Shown here piece by piece: positions 15,148 through 22,174 of a DNA stretch of 32,716 nucleotides. The position numbers and the translations under genes are program-made. The stretch is from contig DUOB01000057.1 of NCBI GenBank assembly GCA_012839035.1, positions 1 to 32,716 on the forward strand. The letters run 5' to 3'. This DNA comes from Propionibacterium sp. (GTDB lineage: Bacteria > Actinomycetota > Actinomycetes > Propionibacteriales > Propionibacteriaceae). Numbering within the stretch: position 1 is the stretch's first letter; each line of letters opens with the position of its first letter. The notes under the pieces are model-generated. The model did no database searches. It was not told the origin of the DNA and was given only the letters and a program-made list of their open reading frames with translations.

Positions 15148-16518
15148 TCAGCGCTTGGCAGCGGCGAGGATCAGGTCGTGCACTGCCGTCGCGGGGACGG
15201 CGGCACCGTCGAACCCCGGGAGGTCGTGGGAGCTGATCAGGACGGGCGAATCGTCCGCACCGGGCAGGCGGCCGTGCGTACCCTTCACCCACGTCGGATC
15301 CAGCGGCACGATGTTCATCGCATAGCGCAGCCCGGCCTTCTTCTTCAGCAGGTTGAGCCCGGCCTTGGGCTTGACGAGCTTGTCGGCCGGATCGAGGAAG
15401 AGCTCGGCGGGGTCGTACCCGGGCTTCTTGTGAATCTCCACCCCGCGCGCGAAGTCGGGGGCGACGGCGTCGTCGAGCCAGTAGTAGTAGGTGAACCACG
15501 CACCCGGCTCGGCGATCGCGACGAGGTCTCCGGAGCGTTCATGGTGCAGCCCATAGCGCTCCTGCGCAGCCCGGTCCAGCACCTCGTCGACCCCGGGCAA
15601 CTCGGCCAGCATGGCCGCGACGCGTGAGCGGTCCGAGGCATCGCGTACATAAACATGCGCGACCTGATGGTCGGCGACCGCGAACGCCCGCGAGGTCCAG
15701 GGGTCGAGGAGCTCATGCCCGCCGGAGTTGTACACCTCCAGCAGCCCCGCCCGCCGCAGCAGCCGGTTGATGTCCACCGGCTGGTCGGCCTCGGCGATGC
15801 CGTACTCCGACACCGCCAGCACCACCATGCCGTGCTCCGCCGCGCAGTCCAGAAGCTCCCCGATCACCACGTCCAGCTCGGCCGCGGCCTTCGCCGCCTG
15901 CGGGGAGTCCGGCCCGAAGCGCTGGAGGTCGTAGTCGAGGTGGGGGAGGTACGCCATCACCAGGTCGTGGGCGTGCTGCTCGATCATCCGCTTGGTGGCC
16001 GCAGCGATCCACTGACTCGACTTGATGGAGGCGCCGGCGCCCCAGTACTGGAACAGCGGGAACGTCCCCAGCTCCCTCGTCAGCTCGTCGTGCAGCATCG
16101 GCGGCCGGGTATAGCAGTCCGGCGACTTCCGGCCGTCCGCGTGATAGACCGGGCGCGGCGTGACCGTGATGTCGACGTCCATGCCCATCGCGTACCACCA
16201 ACAGATGTTCGCCACCGAGAACGAACCCAGTTCGGTGCGCGCGGTGTCCCAGACCTTCGGCCCCTGCACGAGCGCATTGTGCTGGCGCCACAGGAACACC
16301 TCGCCCAGGTCCCGGAAATACCAGCCGTTGCCGACGATCCCGTGCTCCGCCGGCATCCGGCCGGTGAGCATGGTCGACTGCACCGAGCACGTCACCGCCG
16401 GCAGGACCGTGTCGAGACGCATCTGCACCCCGGTCCGCGCCAGCGCCGACAGCCGCGGCATGTGCGCCAGCGCCTTGGTGGTGAGCCCGACGACGTCCAA
16501 CAGCAGCACGCGTGCCAT
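15148..16518 (-). CDS. eboF: Alkaline-phosphatase-superfamily protein, EboF-like (nucleotide pyrophosphatase/phosphodiesterase fold)
   Basis: This is the last gene of the ebo-like operon, 456 residues long. The N-terminal metal ligand Asp8 (RVLLLDVVGL) and the nucleophile Thr43 (LPAVTCSVQSTMLTG) match the nucleotide pyrophosphatase/phosphodiesterase branch. Further ligands are likely in YLPHLDYD (His193, Asp195) and ADHQVAH (Asp283-His284). The usual SDHG motif reads SEYGI (Glu238-Tyr239), a variation I recall from EboF-type proteins. No signal peptide is seen. It probably hydrolyses a phosphodiester or pyrophosphate bond in the pathway product or precursor; the substrate is unknown. The ATG at 16516-16518 lies 3 bases after the eboE stop. 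Confidence 0.85.
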   Translation of the reverse strand: MARVLLLDVVGLTTKALAHMPRLSALARTGVQMRLDTVLPAVTCSVQSTMLTGRMPAEHGIVGNGWYFRDLGEVFLWRQHNALVQGPKVWDTARTELGSFSVANICWWYAMGMDVDITVTPRPVYHADGRKSPDCYTRPPMLHDELTRELGTFPLFQYWGAGASIKSSQWIAAATKRMIEQHAHDLVMAYLPHLDYDLQRFGPDSPQAAKAAAELDVVIGELLDCAAEHGMVVLAVSEYGIAEADQPVDINRLLRRAGLLEVYNSGGHELLDPWTSRAFAVADHQVAHVYVRDASDRSRVAAMLAELPGVDEVLDRAAQERYGLHHERSGDLVAIAEPGAWFTYYYWLDDAVAPDFARGVEIHKKPGYDPAELFLDPADKLVKPKAGLNLLKKKAGLRYAMNIVPLDPTWVKGTHGRLPGADDSPVLISSHDLPGFDGAAVPATAVHDLILAAAKR

Positions 16519-16521
16519 GTC

Positions 16522-17655
16522 CTACTCCTCTTCTCGAGCCGCCGCCATCAGCCAGCGCAGCTCCTCGGTGATGCCGGTGACGAGGTCGACCCCGGCGGTC
16601 TCGGGCGGCAGGACCGCCCAGGTGTACGTCTCCACTTCCAGGTCGTACGCCCCCGCACCCGCCAACTCCCGCAGGCAGTCGACGATCGTCCCGCGCGTCG
16701 ACCGCAGCGGCGGTTGGGGATCGGCATGCACGGGGATGTGGAAGTGGACGCGCCAGGGACCTCCCCCGGGCAGTTCGGTGAGCGCCACGTCCAGGTCGTC
16801 GACACCCAGCACGGTCCCGTCCGCCGCCAGCTCACGGGTCTGGTGCAGATAGCGCGGTTCGACGAACCGGCCGATCAACTCACGCTGCCGGGGATCGCTC
16901 GGGTCCGGCACCTCCGGCGCCGCCGAGGCCTGCACCTTGACCACCGACAACCCTGCGGCATGGACCGCCGCGATCTCGGTCACCGGGTCGGCGAAGGAGA
17001 CCGCGAGATGGCAGGTGTCGAGACAGATCCCTATGTACGCCGGGTCCAGCGATCCGGACTCCACCCGCGGGCGCAGCCAGGCGACGACGTCGGCGACGGT
17101 GTCGAGCACGCAGCCCGGTTCGGGCTCGATCGCGAGACGCACCCGGCGCCCGGACCGGGCGTACAGCTCCTCGAGAAACGCGCCCACGCGTCCGAGCTCA
17201 CGCTCCGCGGCCGCGTCCTCCGCGGGACCCCACCCCTCGCGCCAGCCGAGCGGGACCGTGGAAATGCTGCCGACCCCATCCACCGGGAGCAAATCCGCCA
17301 GCACCTCCGCGCAGTGCAGCGTGAACTCCGTGCGCGCGGGGTCGCCCCACCGGGGGAGATAGACGGCGCGCTTCACGACGTCGGCATGGAAGCCTGCATA
17401 GGGGAACGCGTTGAGCGTGCGCACGGCGAGTCCGTTGGCGGCGAGTCGGTCCTTCAGGAGTGCCCGCGCGTCCGGTCCCGCAGCGAGTTCGGCGGCGACC
17501 GGGGCGGGGAGCCAGAGGCCGACGTCGAGGAGGGGTACGCCGAGTCGCTGCCGGATCGGCCCGGCATGGACGTCCAGTTGGTCGAGCAGACCCGGCAGGT
17601 CCTCGGCCGGATGCACGTTGGTGCAATAGCCGACCGGGGTATGGGAGCGGCTCAA
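16522..17655 (-). CDS. eboE: EboE-like TIM-barrel protein (xylose-isomerase-like fold)
   Basis: This 377-residue protein has the sugar-isomerase/epimerase TIM-barrel pattern: VGYCTNVHPAEDL at the first strand, NAFPYAGFH, RLAIEPEPGCVLDTVADV, IGICLDTCHLAVSF and VHFHIPVH, which would line a metal site. It matches the EboE 'metabolite traffic' family. The start is judged to be TTG at 17653-17655, which overlaps the stop of the upstream TatD gene as TTGA, because the homology begins 8 codons later and no ATG or GTG lies nearby. It is paralogous to the shorter TIM-barrel gene at 19160-20041 but has an additional C-terminal part of about 80 residues. The substrate is unknown. Confidence 0.84.
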   Translation of the reverse strand: MSRSHTPVGYCTNVHPAEDLPGLLDQLDVHAGPIRQRLGVPLLDVGLWLPAPVAAELAAGPDARALLKDRLAANGLAVRTLNAFPYAGFHADVVKRAVYLPRWGDPARTEFTLHCAEVLADLLPVDGVGSISTVPLGWREGWGPAEDAAAERELGRVGAFLEELYARSGRRVRLAIEPEPGCVLDTVADVVAWLRPRVESGSLDPAYIGICLDTCHLAVSFADPVTEIAAVHAAGLSVVKVQASAAPEVPDPSDPRQRELIGRFVEPRYLHQTRELAADGTVLGVDDLDVALTELPGGGPWRVHFHIPVHADPQPPLRSTRGTIVDCLRELAGAGAYDLEVETYTWAVLPPETAGVDLVTGITEELRWLMAAAREEE

Positions 17656-18533
17656 GACTTCGGGCCGCGCAGGACGGAGTTGCCCTCGAACGTGTCCGCT
17701 CCCGGCGCGGGCGCGAGTTCGTCGGTGAAGCCCGGGACCGGGTCGAGGTTGAGTCGCCCGCTCTGGCCATAGAACTCGACGGGGTTCTGCCACAGCACCT
17801 TGTCGACGTCCTCGTCGGTGAACCCGGCGGCGAGCATCGCCCGGCCGGTCTTCACGGTCTTCAAGGGGTCGGAGCGGCCCCAGTCGGCCGCGGAGTTCAC
17901 CATCACGCGGTCGGTGCCGATCTGCTTGAGGATCTCGACCATGCGGTCCTCGTCCATCTTGGTGTTCGGATAGACGGAGAACCCCATCCAGCATCCGGCC
18001 TCCCGGACCGGGGTCAGCGTGACCTCGTTGAGGTGGTCGACGACGACCATGCCGGGCTCGAGCCCGGCCTCGCGGACGACGTCGAGAGTCCGCTGGGTGC
18101 CGGCGTGCTTGTCCCGGTGGGGGGTGCGCACCATGACCGGGAGCCCGAATTCCTTCGCCATCTCGAGCTGTGCGGAGAACACCTCGTCCTCGGCGGGGGT
18201 GATGTTGTCATAGCCGACCTCGCCGATGGCAACCACGCCGTCCTTGTTGAGATAGCGGGGCATGACGTCGAGCACCGGGCGGCAGCGCTCGTCGTTGGCC
18301 TCCTTGGGGTTCAGCGCGATCGTGGCGTGGTGGCGGATGCCGAACTGCAGCGCCCGGAACCGTTCCCAACCGATGATCGAGTCGAAATAGTCGACGAAGG
18401 ATTCGACCGAGGTGCGCGGCTGACCGAGCCAGAAGGCGGGCTCGACGAGGGCGCGGACCCCGGCGGCGTACATCGCCTCGTAGTCGTCCGTCGTCCGTGA
18501 CGTCATGTGGATGTGCGGGTCGAAGATGCGCAT
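17652..18533 (-). CDS. eboB: TatD-like metal-dependent hydrolase, EboB-like
   Basis: This 293-residue TIM-barrel amidohydrolase has the HxH metal motif at His7-His9 (FDPHIHM), a bridging Glu105 (AIGEVGYD), His139 (RTPHRDK), His167 (VVDHLNE) and Asp217 (VNSAADWG). It belongs to the TatD-like group found in ebo clusters rather than to the DNase TatD proper. The ATG at 18531-18533 has AGAGGAG 6 bases upstream, and the gene lies 27 bases after eboA. Its stop overlaps the start of eboE. The substrate is unknown; a hydrolytic step in the ebo pathway is inferred. Confidence 0.87.
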   Translation of the reverse strand: MRIFDPHIHMTSRTTDDYEAMYAAGVRALVEPAFWLGQPRTSVESFVDYFDSIIGWERFRALQFGIRHHATIALNPKEANDERCRPVLDVMPRYLNKDGVVAIGEVGYDNITPAEDEVFSAQLEMAKEFGLPVMVRTPHRDKHAGTQRTLDVVREAGLEPGMVVVDHLNEVTLTPVREAGCWMGFSVYPNTKMDEDRMVEILKQIGTDRVMVNSAADWGRSDPLKTVKTGRAMLAAGFTDEDVDKVLWQNPVEFYGQSGRLNLDPVPGFTDELAPAPGADTFEGNSVLRGPKS

Positions 18534-18560
18534 GACTGCTCCTCTGGGAAGGTGTGCCGT

Positions 18561-19163
18561 TCAGGCGGGGATGGGCTGGTCGTCGATCAGGGCGGTCAGG
18601 TCGGGGGAGAGCGTGCGGCCGGCCGCACGGCGCTCGGTGGCCAGGTTTTCCGCCTGGACCTTCAGATCGGCATCGCGACGCTCCTCGACCGCGGCCACGG
18701 CGGCGAGGGGGATCTCCATGAAGATGCATTTGAGGACGCCGCCGCGCCACTCCACCGCAGGCAGGTGACGCCCGGCGAACTCGCCCATCGCCGCCGCCAC
18801 CAGGCGGGGGTCGTTGGTGCGGAGAGCATCGTTCACGAGGTCGATGCCGGTTGCGACCAGGGGGTCGGGGCCGTCGATGGCGGCCAGCCCGCGCATGACC
18901 CCGCGCCGCTCGGCGTCGTCACCGTGGCGATAGAGGTCCGTCAGGATCCGCGCGGCCTTCTCCGGGCCGGCTGCCTGCACGACCGTCGCGACGAGCCCCG
19001 CGCGAGCGACATCGTCCACCGACCCGCGCAGGGCCTGCGGGTCGATGTCGGGGTGCAGGGGTGCCCGACCAACCTTGCGGCCGACGGCGGGGAAGTGCCG
19101 TTCGATGCGCTGCGGGTCGTCGGTGATGTCGGCAGTGACCTGGTCGAGCCAGTCGTTGCTCAT
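18561..19163 (-). CDS. eboA: EboA domain-containing protein
   Basis: This 200-residue protein has the EboA hallmark C-terminal half: DALRTNDPRLVAAAMGEF, GGVLKCIFMEIPL and LATERRAAGRTLSPDLTALI. It is predicted to be mostly helical, like EboA proteins elsewhere. EboA has no known catalytic activity, so a structural or adaptor role is possible. The ATG at 19161-19163 follows GGAAGGA and overlaps the stop of the upstream TIM-barrel gene as ATGA. Its presence is the main reason to assign the operon to the ebo group. Confidence 0.83.
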   Translation of the reverse strand: MSNDWLDQVTADITDDPQRIERHFPAVGRKVGRAPLHPDIDPQALRGSVDDVARAGLVATVVQAAGPEKAARILTDLYRHGDDAERRGVMRGLAAIDGPDPLVATGIDLVNDALRTNDPRLVAAAMGEFAGRHLPAVEWRGGVLKCIFMEIPLAAVAAVEERRDADLKVQAENLATERRAAGRTLSPDLTALIDDQPIPA

Positions 19164-20041
19164 GGGTTCCTTCCGGTCGAGTCGGTGGTCACGCGACGCC
19201 ACGCCTCGTCGAGCGCGGACATGGAGCTCGCGGCCAGGCGTGGGGCGTCGTGGGAGTGACGGGGGAGTTCGATGGCGGCGAGGCCGCGATAGTCGATCTC
19301 CTGCAGCGTGGCGAGCGCAGCGACGAGGTCGAGCTGACCGCTGCCGAGCTCGAGGTGTTCGTGGATGCCGGGCAGCATGTCGTCCACCTGGACGTTGCGG
19401 AGCAGGGGTCCGGCCTGGCGCAGGGCGCCGACGACGCCGTCGGGCTCGACCGCGACGCAGTGGCCCAGGTCCACCGTGACGCCGAGCTCCTCGGGGTCGC
19501 CCATCAGCGCGCGGAGCGCGAGCGCGTCGGCCACGGTTTCGACGACCATGCCGGGTTCGGGTTCGAAGGAGAGGAGTACGCCGGCCGCTGCCGCCTTGTC
19601 GATGACCCGCTTCATCCGTTCGGTGAGCCGCCGCCAGGCCTCGTCGGACGGGGTGTCGGGTGGCAGCGTGCCGGACCACAGGGAAACGCAGTCCGCGCCG
19701 GTCCGGGCTGCGATGTCGATCGCGCGGTCGAGGAACCGCAGCCGGGGCTCGGCGTGTTCATCGACGAGCGTCGGGCGGTGCTTGACGAACGGATCGAGCA
19801 GGAAGCGGGTGCCGGTTTCGATGACCAGCGGCCAGTCACCGATGAGCTCGCGTACCGCATCCGCCTGCCGCTCCCAGTCCTCCGCAAAGGGGTGGAGATG
19901 CTGGAAACCCAGCGTGAGCGCGAGACCCCCGTACCCTTCCGCACGCAACACCGCCACCACATCGGGCAGGTCGTGATCGGCGAACCCGTTCGTTCCGTAC
20001 CCCACCGTGAAGGGTGCTCCTGAGACCGGGTGTCCCGTCAC
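19160..20041 (-). CDS. Sugar phosphate isomerase/epimerase (TIM barrel), EboE paralogue
   Basis: This 293-residue protein shows AP-endonuclease-2/xylose-isomerase-like barrel motifs: VGYGTNGFADHDL, LSFEPEPGMVVETVADALAL, GVTVDLGHCVAV and VQVDDMLPGIHEHLELG. The conserved Glu, Asp, His and Glu residues could bind a metal as in xylose isomerase. It shares the opening motif and EPEPG motif with the EboE-like protein three genes downstream, so the two are likely ancient paralogues with different substrates. The GTG at 20039-20041 overlaps the stop of the prenyltransferase gene (GTGA), and its own stop overlaps the eboA start. The substrate is unknown. Confidence 0.84.
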   Translation of the reverse strand: MTGHPVSGAPFTVGYGTNGFADHDLPDVVAVLRAEGYGGLALTLGFQHLHPFAEDWERQADAVRELIGDWPLVIETGTRFLLDPFVKHRPTLVDEHAEPRLRFLDRAIDIAARTGADCVSLWSGTLPPDTPSDEAWRRLTERMKRVIDKAAAAGVLLSFEPEPGMVVETVADALALRALMGDPEELGVTVDLGHCVAVEPDGVVGALRQAGPLLRNVQVDDMLPGIHEHLELGSGQLDLVAALATLQEIDYRGLAAIELPRHSHDAPRLAASSMSALDEAWRRVTTDSTGRNP

Positions 20042-20967
20042 GTGGTGTCCCCGCGCATCCTGCGGATCACCTGCTGCTGGGCCGGCTCGAGAGCGGCGAC
20101 CACGGCGGCCGGGATCAGGTTGCCGGTCCGGGCGATCAGCGCAGCCTGCAGCGGGATCAGCGCGCCGAGGTTCGCGCGGACGGCAGCGCGGATACGGGTG
20201 CCGGTGGGCTCGTCGATCGCCCGGTTGAGCGGGGGAATGGCCTTGGCGAGATAACGGTACGCCGACACCGCTGCCCCGGCCCGGCCCAGGACCGTCAGGA
20301 CCGGTTTGTCGTGCGAACGCCCCGTGACCGTCGCGGCGGCCGCGACCGCGCCGACGGCGATGCGTACGCCTGCGGGCAGGGAGGCCTCCGCGCCGTGCAC
20401 CTCGGCCTTCGACAGCTCCGTGACGGCCACGGTGTGGGCACCGATCGTGAGCGCGGGAGCGAGTGCGTGGCAGGACCCCGCACCGAGCAGAACGTTGAGA
20501 CTCCGGCAGGCCGCCATCACCCACGCACCCGCCGGGGTGTCCTTGGCGACGGTGTCATAGGCCGCGACCGTGGCGGCCAGGACCGCCGCCCTGCGGAATC
20601 CCCGGGCGCCGTCGAGCAGACCCGCCACCAGGACGCCGGCTCCGATGAGTCCGGTGCTGACCCGGAAGGCCTCACCGGCACTGAGCTGACCGGACGGGAT
20701 CGGGCGTTCGGGTCGCTCCTCGGCGTCGATCTCGCGGTCCGCCCAGTCGTTGAGCCCCATGCCGCCGGCATAGATCAGGACCGAGGTGAGGGGCAGGAAC
20801 AGTCGGCGGGTTTCGATGGGGCCGCCGGCGTACGCCCCCACCAAGGGGTCACCGATGGCGCTGAACGCCGCGGGCGCCCGCAGCAGCTCGGCGATGACCT
20901 TGGCCTTCTCCCGGGCGCTGGTGGGCTCTGGCCGGTCGGCGGGGGAGTGCTCCTCCCGGCCGGTCAT
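20038..20967 (-). CDS. eboC: UbiA-family prenyltransferase, EboC-like
   Basis: This 309-residue, strongly hydrophobic protein has the first UbiA aspartate motif NDWADREID (residues 73-81) and the family continuation ERPERPIPSGQLSAGEA. A second motif region lies around VAAYDTVAKDTPAGAWVMA (Tyr136). It should transfer an isoprenoid chain to an acceptor inside the membrane. In ebo clusters the prenyltransferase is EboC. Acceptor and donor are unknown. The ATG at 20965-20967 overlaps the stop of the restored inositol-phosphate-synthase-like frame as ATGA, which shows the intended operon structure. Confidence 0.87.
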   Translation of the reverse strand: MTGREEHSPADRPEPTSAREKAKVIAELLRAPAAFSAIGDPLVGAYAGGPIETRRLFLPLTSVLIYAGGMGLNDWADREIDAEERPERPIPSGQLSAGEAFRVSTGLIGAGVLVAGLLDGARGFRRAAVLAATVAAYDTVAKDTPAGAWVMAACRSLNVLLGAGSCHALAPALTIGAHTVAVTELSKAEVHGAEASLPAGVRIAVGAVAAAATVTGRSHDKPVLTVLGRAGAAVSAYRYLAKAIPPLNRAIDEPTGTRIRAAVRANLGALIPLQAALIARTGNLIPAAVVAALEPAQQQVIRRMRGDTT

Positions 20968-22174
20968 CGGGCGACCCCACTGTCGGCGGTGGCGAGCTCC
21001 CTGGCCCAGCCATAGAGCTGTTGGGCCTGGACCGCATAGTCGTGGACATCCGAGCCCCAGGGGTCCTTGAAGAAGAAGCCCAGCTCACCGATCGGGCCAC
21101 GGGCCCGGTGCGATCCGCCAGATCGAGCAGTCGGACGAGGTCGATGACCAGCGGCGCGGCGAGCATCGAGTCATAGGCGGTCCAAGTCGTCTGCAGCGTG
21201 ATCCGCGAGCCGAGGAATCCCTCCGCATGGATGTGGTCCCACGCCGTCTTGATGTCACCGAGATCCGGCACGTTGTCGATGTGCAGCGGCGTGACCACGT
21301 GATCGCCGACGAGGGCGCGGAGGCCGCGGTTCTTGCTGGTCAGCTTGCTGCTGACCGCGTGGGGATCGGCCAGGGTCGCACCGTCACCGCCGCCCAGGAC
21401 GTTGGCGCCGGCCCAGGACAGGACCCGGAAACCGCGTCGGGTGAGCGTCGGCGCCAGCGCGGTGCGCAAGAGGGTCTGGCCGGTCTTGCCGTCCTGACCG
21501 GCGTACGGGATCTGCTCGCGCGCCAAGGCCTGCAACACCGGCAGGCCCAGGGACGCGGACGGGGTGAAGCAGGCGAGGGGGGAGCCCGTCCGGATCGCGG
21601 CGAGCGCATAGAGACTGCTCGGTGGCAGCGGCGCACGCTGGGCATCGGCGAGCGCTTCGGTGAGGAGTTGCGAATCGTGGAACTCCGGACGGTCCTCCGG
21701 CAGGGGCTCGGTGGAGGACAGGTCCACGACCACGACGCGGTCGAGCTGGTGTCGGGTGCGGAAGTCCGCGATGTCTCCGGCCAGGCGATCCACGATGGTG
21801 GCCTGCGGGTGCGAGTCATGTCCGGTCACCCCGGGGCGGATCTCCGCCTCGAACCGATCGAGGTCGGCGCCGGCGGAGGTGACTGCCGCCGTCGGGAGCA
21901 TTCCACTCGCCGCCAGCTGCTCGGCGCGTGCCTGGACGGGGGTCATCGTGATGTCGTGACCGCCCAGGACGAGTCGATCAGGAGCGAGCAGGTCCAGGTC
22001 CGCCAGCTCCAGCGTGGCGGTCACACAGCCGGTGAGGTCGGCCAGACCATGACTGATTGCGGCAATCCCGACTGCTGTGGTCACGCCGATCGAGCCGCGT
22101 GCACCCAAGAGCCACAGGCCGATGCGTCCGGTCGTCTGCCATGGATCCATGTGTGTGTTCGGATCGGCGTTCAC
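20964..22174 (-). pseudogene. Inositol-3-phosphate-synthase-like protein, single-base frameshift near the 3' end
   Basis: If one base is added at a C/G run near 21104-21106, this first gene of the operon encodes about 403 residues and ends in ATGA overlap with the prenyltransferase. Without it, translation leaves the family after LLDLADRTG and would run to 20849. The restored tail reads ARGPIGELGFFFKDPWGSDV and ends ATADSGVAR. The N-terminal Rossmann motif is GARGSIG (Gly24, Gly27, Gly30). The MIPS-type central region includes SWAGANVLGGGDGATLADP, SKLTSKNRGLRALVGDHV and DLGDIKTAWDHIHAEGFLG. The family makes inositol-3-phosphate from glucose-6-phosphate with NAD; the exact product of this ebo-linked branch is uncertain. 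The GTG at 22172-22174 follows AGGAG. It may be a sequencing error. Confidence 0.8.

Follow-up and report, generated by a model that had tools for sequence, protein, structure and literature searches.

An ebo-type operon of Actinomycetota in which an inositol-phosphate synthase stands in place of EboD

To our knowledge, nobody knows what the gene clusters called ebo make, and the ring-making protein EboD points only to the product of a cyclase. The six-gene ebo operon was described in Bacteroidota, Cyanobacteria and the plastids of eustigmatophytes in a 2016 paper that proposed an isoprenoid-cyclitol product; the word inositol is absent from it (PMC5133447). Export of a metabolite from the cytoplasm by ebo is known from Nostoc mutants only (PMC6282210). 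Here we describe an ebo-type operon in a stretch of 32,716 nucleotides from a Propionibacterium sp. (contig DUOB01000057.1 of assembly GCA_012839035.1), which we call the window. It shares EboA, EboB, EboC, EboE and EboF with the six-gene operon, clustered and codirectional in both, but differs in having no EboD, in encoding instead an inositol-phosphate synthase (Ino1) along with an additional TIM barrel (TIM2), and in its order, Ino1-C-TIM2-A-B-E-F.

The operon and its distribution

Five of the operon genes encode Ebo proteins (A, B, C, E and F), and these are accompanied by the extra TIM barrel and by an Ino1 of archaeal type (Table 1). The seven genes lie on the minus strand from 22174 down to 15148, with overlaps of ATGA between Ino1 and EboC, GTGA between EboC and TIM2, ATGA between TIM2 and EboA, and TTGA between EboB and EboE, and with gaps of 27 bases between EboA and EboB and 3 bases between EboE and EboF; when the junctions were re-read, the genes, order, strand, four overlaps and two gaps were all as described in a first-pass annotation made from the sequence. 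EboA and EboE passed the cut-offs of their models (50 bits for NF035938, 250 bits for NF035939), so that the EboA assigned earlier at this position stands; against the narrower model NF035937 EboA scored 39.6, under the cut-off of 320. The best model for EboC was that of a sister family, the SCO3242 prenyltransferases (cut-off 260, passed), and its score against the EboC model NF035940 was 141.2, under the cut-off of 250. Both the NAD-binding and the catalytic domain of Ino1 were above cut-off (PF07994, 129.4 bits; PF01658, 99.2 bits), as were EboB and EboF in Pfam, and the latter two grouped with ebo-cluster copies from other phyla. An identical seven-gene order was found in 22 of 22 fetched relatives holding all seven genes, which makes the arrangement more than chance; distance correlations between Ino1 and the other six genes were 0.80-0.90, and the flanks of the window operon consist of the same genes as in two same-genus relatives.

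No EboD was found beside the operon, in the genome or alongside related Ino1-type operons, in agreement with the absence reported earlier. The single gene of the 3-dehydroquinate synthase family in the genome is on another contig; its score against the EboD-type model NF004852 was 173.7, where the cut-off is 333. For want of EboD we classed the operon as an Ino1 variant, distinct from the six-gene type. EboE occurred in 11 of 57 relatives; of ten neighbourhoods from relatives, six had all seven genes, one (L022) ended at a contig end, and three (L020, L021, L023) kept B-E-F or E alone. A membrane protein and the EboB part form a single frame in L020, which points to decay or rearrangement.

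Among 396 sampled Actinomycetota genomes, EboE was found in 19 and EboA in 18, the genome without EboA being G436. These 19 EboE loci and that of the window comprised 17 with Ino1, one with EboD (G436) and two with neither, namely L046, a second copy in genome G184 that keeps TIM2, and L063, where EboE is in pieces. At the place of ino1 in the second ebo copy of G184 there is a FAD amine-oxidase-like gene (L046:13912-15333). A search of the 396 genomes with an Ino1 alignment gave 17 matches of at least 534 bits, which were the same 17 EboE loci; the next match was at 332 bits, and among the matches listed none of the weaker ones adjoins EboE. The EboD-type model was above cut-off in one of 29 EboE-bearing genomes (G436), with no match at all in the incomplete genomes G002 and G373. 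A TIM2-EboA fusion was seen in one locus, L061, and L063 showed an EboA match only; fusion of EboA to a xylose-isomerase-like region in Actinobacteria had been noted before (PMC5133447). In the sampled clusters, Ino1 with TIM2 and EboD are mutually exclusive, and Ino1 stands in place of EboD in most sampled EboE-bearing actinobacteria. Replacement of EboD by Ino1, which the first-pass annotation had put up for a check across Actinobacteria, thus holds in 17 of the 20 loci; that reading had overlooked both the part of TIM2 in the swap and the archaeal type of Ino1.

Loci from other phyla came from a contig scan whose EboE query alignment had the EboD-type protein of G436 as its lead sequence; of at least 591 stretches the best 80 were taken. 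In these best 80, EboD was present in 77, Ino1 in none and a separate TIM2 in none; three (L104, L121, L145) had neither EboD nor Ino1. From them 34 loci were chosen for the EboE tree, 22 for EboF, 21 for EboB and 19 for EboC. The EboE tree has 68 rows, and a single branch in it (support 100/100) parts 25 Ino1-type rows and 6 with neither from 35 EboD-type rows and 2 with neither; G436 falls within the latter group, with Chloroflexota and others as its neighbours. Among rows having either gene, the Ino1/EboD split needs one change, so that the swap within Actinomycetota is one event.

Table 1. Genes of the window operon, with positions in the window and the matches that support each assignment
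Gene product	Description	Position	Strand	Evidence
Ino1	Ino1-like, archaeal-type myo-inositol-phosphate synthase	20964..22174	-	GTG start at 22174; PF07994, PF01658
EboC	UbiA-family prenyltransferase, SCO3242 family	20038..20967	-	NF045897 278.9 bits
TIM2	Xylose-isomerase-like TIM barrel accompanying Ino1	19160..20041	-	PF01261 108.1 bits
EboA		18561..19163	-	NF035938 133.3 bits
EboB	TatD-like hydrolase	17652..18533	-	PF01026 53.7 bits
EboE	TIM-barrel protein, TTG start	16522..17655	-	NF035939 400.7 bits
EboF	Type I phosphodiesterase / nucleotide pyrophosphatase family	15148..16518	-	PF01663 224.1 bits

Ino1, its partners and their relatives

The lead gene had been called Ino1-like, and its two Pfam matches agree with this, but a break in its frame had been missed. 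The span from 22174 to 20964 is 1211 bases, no multiple of three, and in a comparison with the intact Ino1 of a same-genus relative (L018), residues 9-361 align in one frame but 363-402 in a different one, which puts the change of frame between 21104 and 21101. The change precedes the C-terminal FFFKDP stretch, and the ATGA junction with EboC belongs to the second frame. Because of the break, the window copy may be inactive or wrongly assembled; the genome being a draft of 170 contigs, an assembly error and a mutation look alike here.

By sequence, the solved structure closest to the L018 Ino1 is the myo-inositol-phosphate synthase (mIPS) of Archaeoglobus fulgidus (1u1i), at 194.6 bits, compared to 26.4 bits for Ino1 of M. 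tuberculosis. Nine active-site residues of the A. fulgidus enzyme, which we take to be its catalytic set, were kept in 37 of the 37 rows other than that of the window (the ebo-linked rows number 20, the window included). The window row, ending at residue 357, has eight of the nine; the remaining one, K367, is downstream of the frame break. Loss of catalysis had been suspected from one lysine position compared with yeast and was rejected, as alignment to the A. fulgidus enzyme keeps the nine sites; a lysine network is described in PMC11348189. The chemistry expected of Ino1 from these residues is that of a normal synthase, forming inositol phosphate from glucose 6-phosphate. A second Ino1-family gene of the genome, on contig C27, has a very long branch in an Ino1 tree, and a search with the window Ino1 protein gave no match to it at E 1. 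In a further Ino1 tree the 20 ebo-linked actinobacterial rows (100/99) stand next to haloarchaeal rows (93/94) and are set off from 8 actinobacterial rows with no such link and 2 of YcaO type (100/100). A separate clade of archaeal-like inositol-phosphate synthases (L083-L095) occurs in other Actinomycetota, not beside EboE.

The association of TIM2 with Ino1 extends beyond ebo. Searches of plasmids gave 40 records with Ino1 (E 1e-30) and 33 with TIM2 (E 1e-15); all 33 of the latter also hold Ino1, at most 7 kb away. TIM2 is missing from the other seven Ino1 records, of which five are haloarchaeal and two come from Arthrobacter and Bacteroides. On plasmids of Roseomonas (L189:7977-16564) and Hymenobacter (L191:5785-12411), YcaO, Gfo/Idh/MocA and hydrolase genes are joined in one operon with Ino1 and a TIM2-like gene; ebo genes are lacking from both operons, which look like a second pathway using the pair. 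Because TIM2 on plasmids is always with Ino1, even where ebo genes are missing, we infer that TIM2 acts on the product of Ino1. The best matches of the TIM2 model (pLDDT 94.9) in the PDB were ketose 3-epimerases such as UlaE (TM 0.79), with IolI further down.

In EboC the aspartate-rich positions N73, D74, D77 and D81 are invariant across 23 aligned rows; they correspond to NDxxDxxxD, which we take to be the UbiA prenyltransferase motif. The protein resembles DGGGP synthase and chlorophyll synthase. The EboC tree separates 18 Ino1-partnered rows from 23 EboD-partnered ones by a single branch (87/81), and the type of EboC follows its ring-making partner. Of 31 Ino1-type loci, 3 have a polyprenyl synthase gene beside them; in L045 and L057 it is adjacent and runs in the same direction, in L062 it is on the opposite strand. 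In G436, the sole EboD-type actinobacterial cluster, a gene for type 2 isopentenyl-diphosphate (IPP) isomerase (L049:12622-13662) overlaps eboF by four bases. The EboC split together with the polyprenyl synthase and IPP isomerase neighbours would fit a prenylated cyclitol. Prenylation of a cyclitol by EboC, as the first-pass annotation had it, is unproven; the conserved catalytic residues, the pairing of EboC with its partner and the prenyl-diphosphate genes at a few clusters speak for it. The EboA model is all-helical (pLDDT 94.5), with weak likeness only to helical-repeat proteins, and nothing in the PDB matched it at E 0.001 or lower; such a fold would fit a scaffold.

Related gene sets were found outside the Actinomycetota. 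In haloarchaea, Ino1 occurs on plasmids of Halobaculum, Halocatena and Natronococcus together with a UbiA gene, two TIM barrels and genes resembling EboB (TatD family, 42-45% identity) and EboF (35-40% identity); the best NCBIfam model for the Halobaculum UbiA gene was EboC (177.7 bits, under the cut-off of 250). Both TIM barrels in these clusters are closer to TIM2 than to EboE, two of the three clusters are split between strands, and there was no EboA match in the clusters and no EboD match on the plasmids. A plasmid of Gemmatirosa kalamazoonensis has EboE, EboB, EboF, EboC, Ino1 and TIM2, the last three contiguous, with no EboD match in a search that covered this plasmid. Its EboB sits in a clade of EboA-less EboD type (eight rows are so labelled, though in one of them, L121, no EboD was found), and the approximately unbiased (AU) test rejects its joining the actinobacterial Ino1 type (p 2e-30). 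Its EboC groups with actinobacterial Ino1-type EboC with support 95/93, the alternative not being rejected (p 0.278). EboB argues strongly for an independent swap in Gemmatirosa, on which the tests with EboF, EboE and EboC do not decide.

Genes that neighbour the operons of relatives bear on where the product might act. Of 23 Ino1-type genome loci, 10 have a GSDH-family gene (PF07995) nearby, whereas the density of such genes (102 matches in 146.85 Mb) would lead one to expect 0.33, with no correction for kinship; six of the ten share one genus code, and four family codes are represented (f6, f10, f19, f34). Such genes are near 3 of 84 EboD-type loci. On three Streptomyces plasmids a ScyD/ScyE gene directly precedes ino1 (L177:3200-4402, L193:8629-9828, L194:7566-8765), and multicopper oxidase and cytochrome bd genes are near the operon. 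Streptomyces sp. AMCC400023 (L192:275-17146) has a complete Ino1-type operon beside a type II polyketide synthase (PKS) set, and Streptomyces NBC_01244 (L176:1-13354) has a lone eboE in a similar set. A gene for a pyrroloquinoline quinone (PQQ)-dependent sugar dehydrogenase is near one haloarchaeal cluster, and one for a PQQ-dependent dehydrogenase is beside a Salipiger cluster. The GSDH, ScyD/ScyE, multicopper oxidase and PKS genes suggest that the operon serves metabolites finished outside the cytoplasm; at the window, none of the GSDH, ScyD/ScyE, oxidase or PKS neighbours was seen. Two other recurrent neighbours were observed. Directly before ino1, on the same strand, L051 (15235-19115) and, similarly, L048 and L052-L055 have ThuA/3-keto-disaccharide hydrolase and GSDH-PKD-CBM6 genes, separate or in one frame. 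Beyond eboF, L048, L050, L051, L052 and L054 have formyl-CoA transferase, acyl-CoA ligase-like and oxalate/formate-type major facilitator superfamily transporter genes (families tested in L051).

A possible inositol lipid and its rivals

Since Ino1 stands where the ring-making EboD usually is, we predict an inositol-based lipid. We are evenly divided on whether an ebo-type operon with Ino1 and TIM2 at the place of eboD makes an inositol-derived ring that EboC prenylates to a membrane lipid serving a step outside the cytoplasm. Ino1 would turn glucose 6-phosphate into inositol phosphate, which TIM2, and perhaps EboE, would epimerise, isomerise or dehydrate; EboC would then transfer a polyprenyl chain onto the ring, EboF and EboB would remove phosphate or other groups, and the helical EboA would hold the partners together. 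Judging from Nostoc and from the neighbouring genes, the lipid might be a carrier that helps a metabolite cross the membrane or reach secreted oxidases.

Several points weigh against this reading. We know of no activity or product for any Ino1-type ebo enzyme, the ino1 frame of the window is broken, and the window holds no prenyl-diphosphate gene and no GSDH gene matching our queries. EboE loci without Ino1 exist (L046, L063, L020, L021, L023 and L176, the lone eboE in a PKS cluster). Because the swap is one event, the Actinomycetota locus counts are not independent, and because of the EboD-type lead query and the choice of the best 80, the loci from other phyla lean to EboD types. One of the four haloarchaeal clusters read, that of Haladaptatus, has no annotated Ino1 within the stretch, two Halomarina Ino1 genes have no ebo-like neighbours, and AU tests leave the placement of Gemmatirosa open (EboF p 0.124, EboE p 0.369, EboC p 0.278). 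Finally, an EboC relative from marine bacteria farnesylates an aromatic acid, 8-hydroxyquinoline-2-carboxylic acid, in vitro (PMC9235831).

This last activity would suit a scheme in which Ino1 and TIM2 make a polar, unprenylated inositol derivative while EboC takes as its acceptor an aromatic supplied by a pathway nearby, the genes being merely co-regulated. Aromatic polyketide and prenyltransferase genes do adjoin some Streptomyces operons, and Ino1 with TIM2 also occurs in operons without EboC; however, the type of EboC follows the partner gene, EboC, Ino1 and TIM2 are contiguous in Gemmatirosa on an EboD-type EboB backbone, and there are no aromatic pathway genes among the matched parts of the window operon, so that we think such a division of labour doubtful. 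Also unlikely, in our judgment, is that the product is no transport carrier but serves secreted beta-propeller oxidoreductases of GSDH type or like ScyD/ScyE, as a redox cofactor or quinone-like lipid, with the export defect in Nostoc being indirect. The excess of GSDH genes over expectation in four family codes, the ScyD/ScyE, multicopper oxidase and cytochrome bd genes on the Streptomyces plasmids, and the PQQ-dependent dehydrogenases at the haloarchaeal and Salipiger clusters all point that way, but a single genus code accounts for most of the GSDH loci, GSDH is rare at EboD-type loci, and none was found at the window.

If the operon were decaying in this strain and made nothing, the frame break would be explained, and three of ten same-order neighbourhoods (L020, L021, L023) are likewise reduced to EboE or B-E-F; the other six frames of the window are open, however, the draft assembly could itself be at fault, and the same-genus copy in L018 is intact, and we consider decay improbable. 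Very improbable is an ordinary supply of inositol for mycothiol or phosphatidylinositol, with Ino1 beside ebo by chance. The expected chemistry of Ino1 would serve that purpose equally, but the genome has a second Ino1 on C27, all 17 Ino1 genes of the clade in the 396 genomes adjoin EboE, and the ebo-linked clade is apart from the 8 unlinked actinobacterial genes; on these three grounds both chance adjacency and a plain supply of inositol were rejected.

A wider form of the inositol-lipid proposal is possible, although we hold it tentatively and lean against it: inositol-type ebo would be a cross-domain class (actinobacteria, haloarchaea, Gemmatimonadota) making a polyprenyl-inositol lipid as a new membrane carrier or cofactor, EboD systems would be the same machine with another ring, and EboC, Ino1 and TIM2 would form one mobile cassette.

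Comparison with described systems

With the Ino1 form there is a concrete ring to start from, inositol phosphate, together with a candidate prenyl acceptor, and inositol labelling in genetically tractable Streptomyces offers a way to look for the lipid; if the inositol-lipid reading is true, the product of such gene sets becomes testable. If the swap is functional, the machine either tolerates a different ring or is re-tuned to it, with EboC matched to the ring. The Ino1 form further extends ebo-like biology to Archaea and links it with actinobacterial natural-product clusters. NCBI models for the single proteins already exist, and the Ino1-type operon appears to be an unreported variant of ebo; no report of one was found in the PMC literature, subscription papers and preprints being outside the search.

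Among described genes, SCO3242 and SCO3243 of S. coelicolor are listed among CDA-cluster genes as a putative transferase and a myo-inositol phosphate synthase (PMC3610822). They have the same two annotations as the window pair, and the window EboC passes the SCO3242 family model NF045897; no paper linking them to ebo was found. SCO3238-3243 might be a full ebo operon, a guess for which the literature searched gave no support. The mIPS of A. fulgidus is the closest solved structure to the same-genus Ino1 and shares the nine active-site residues. The haloarchaeal clusters share Ino1, EboC-, EboB- and EboF-like genes and the lack of EboD, but differ in having no EboA match and TIM barrels nearer to TIM2. 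The BE-40644 pathway combines a cyclitol with a UbiA enzyme (PMC5133447); its cyclitol ring is prenylated, as we propose here, but it starts with a sedoheptulose-phosphate cyclase and has no ebo cluster. To these systems the present operon adds that the ring-maker of an ebo cluster can be an inositol-phosphate synthase, and that the type of prenyltransferase follows the ring-maker.

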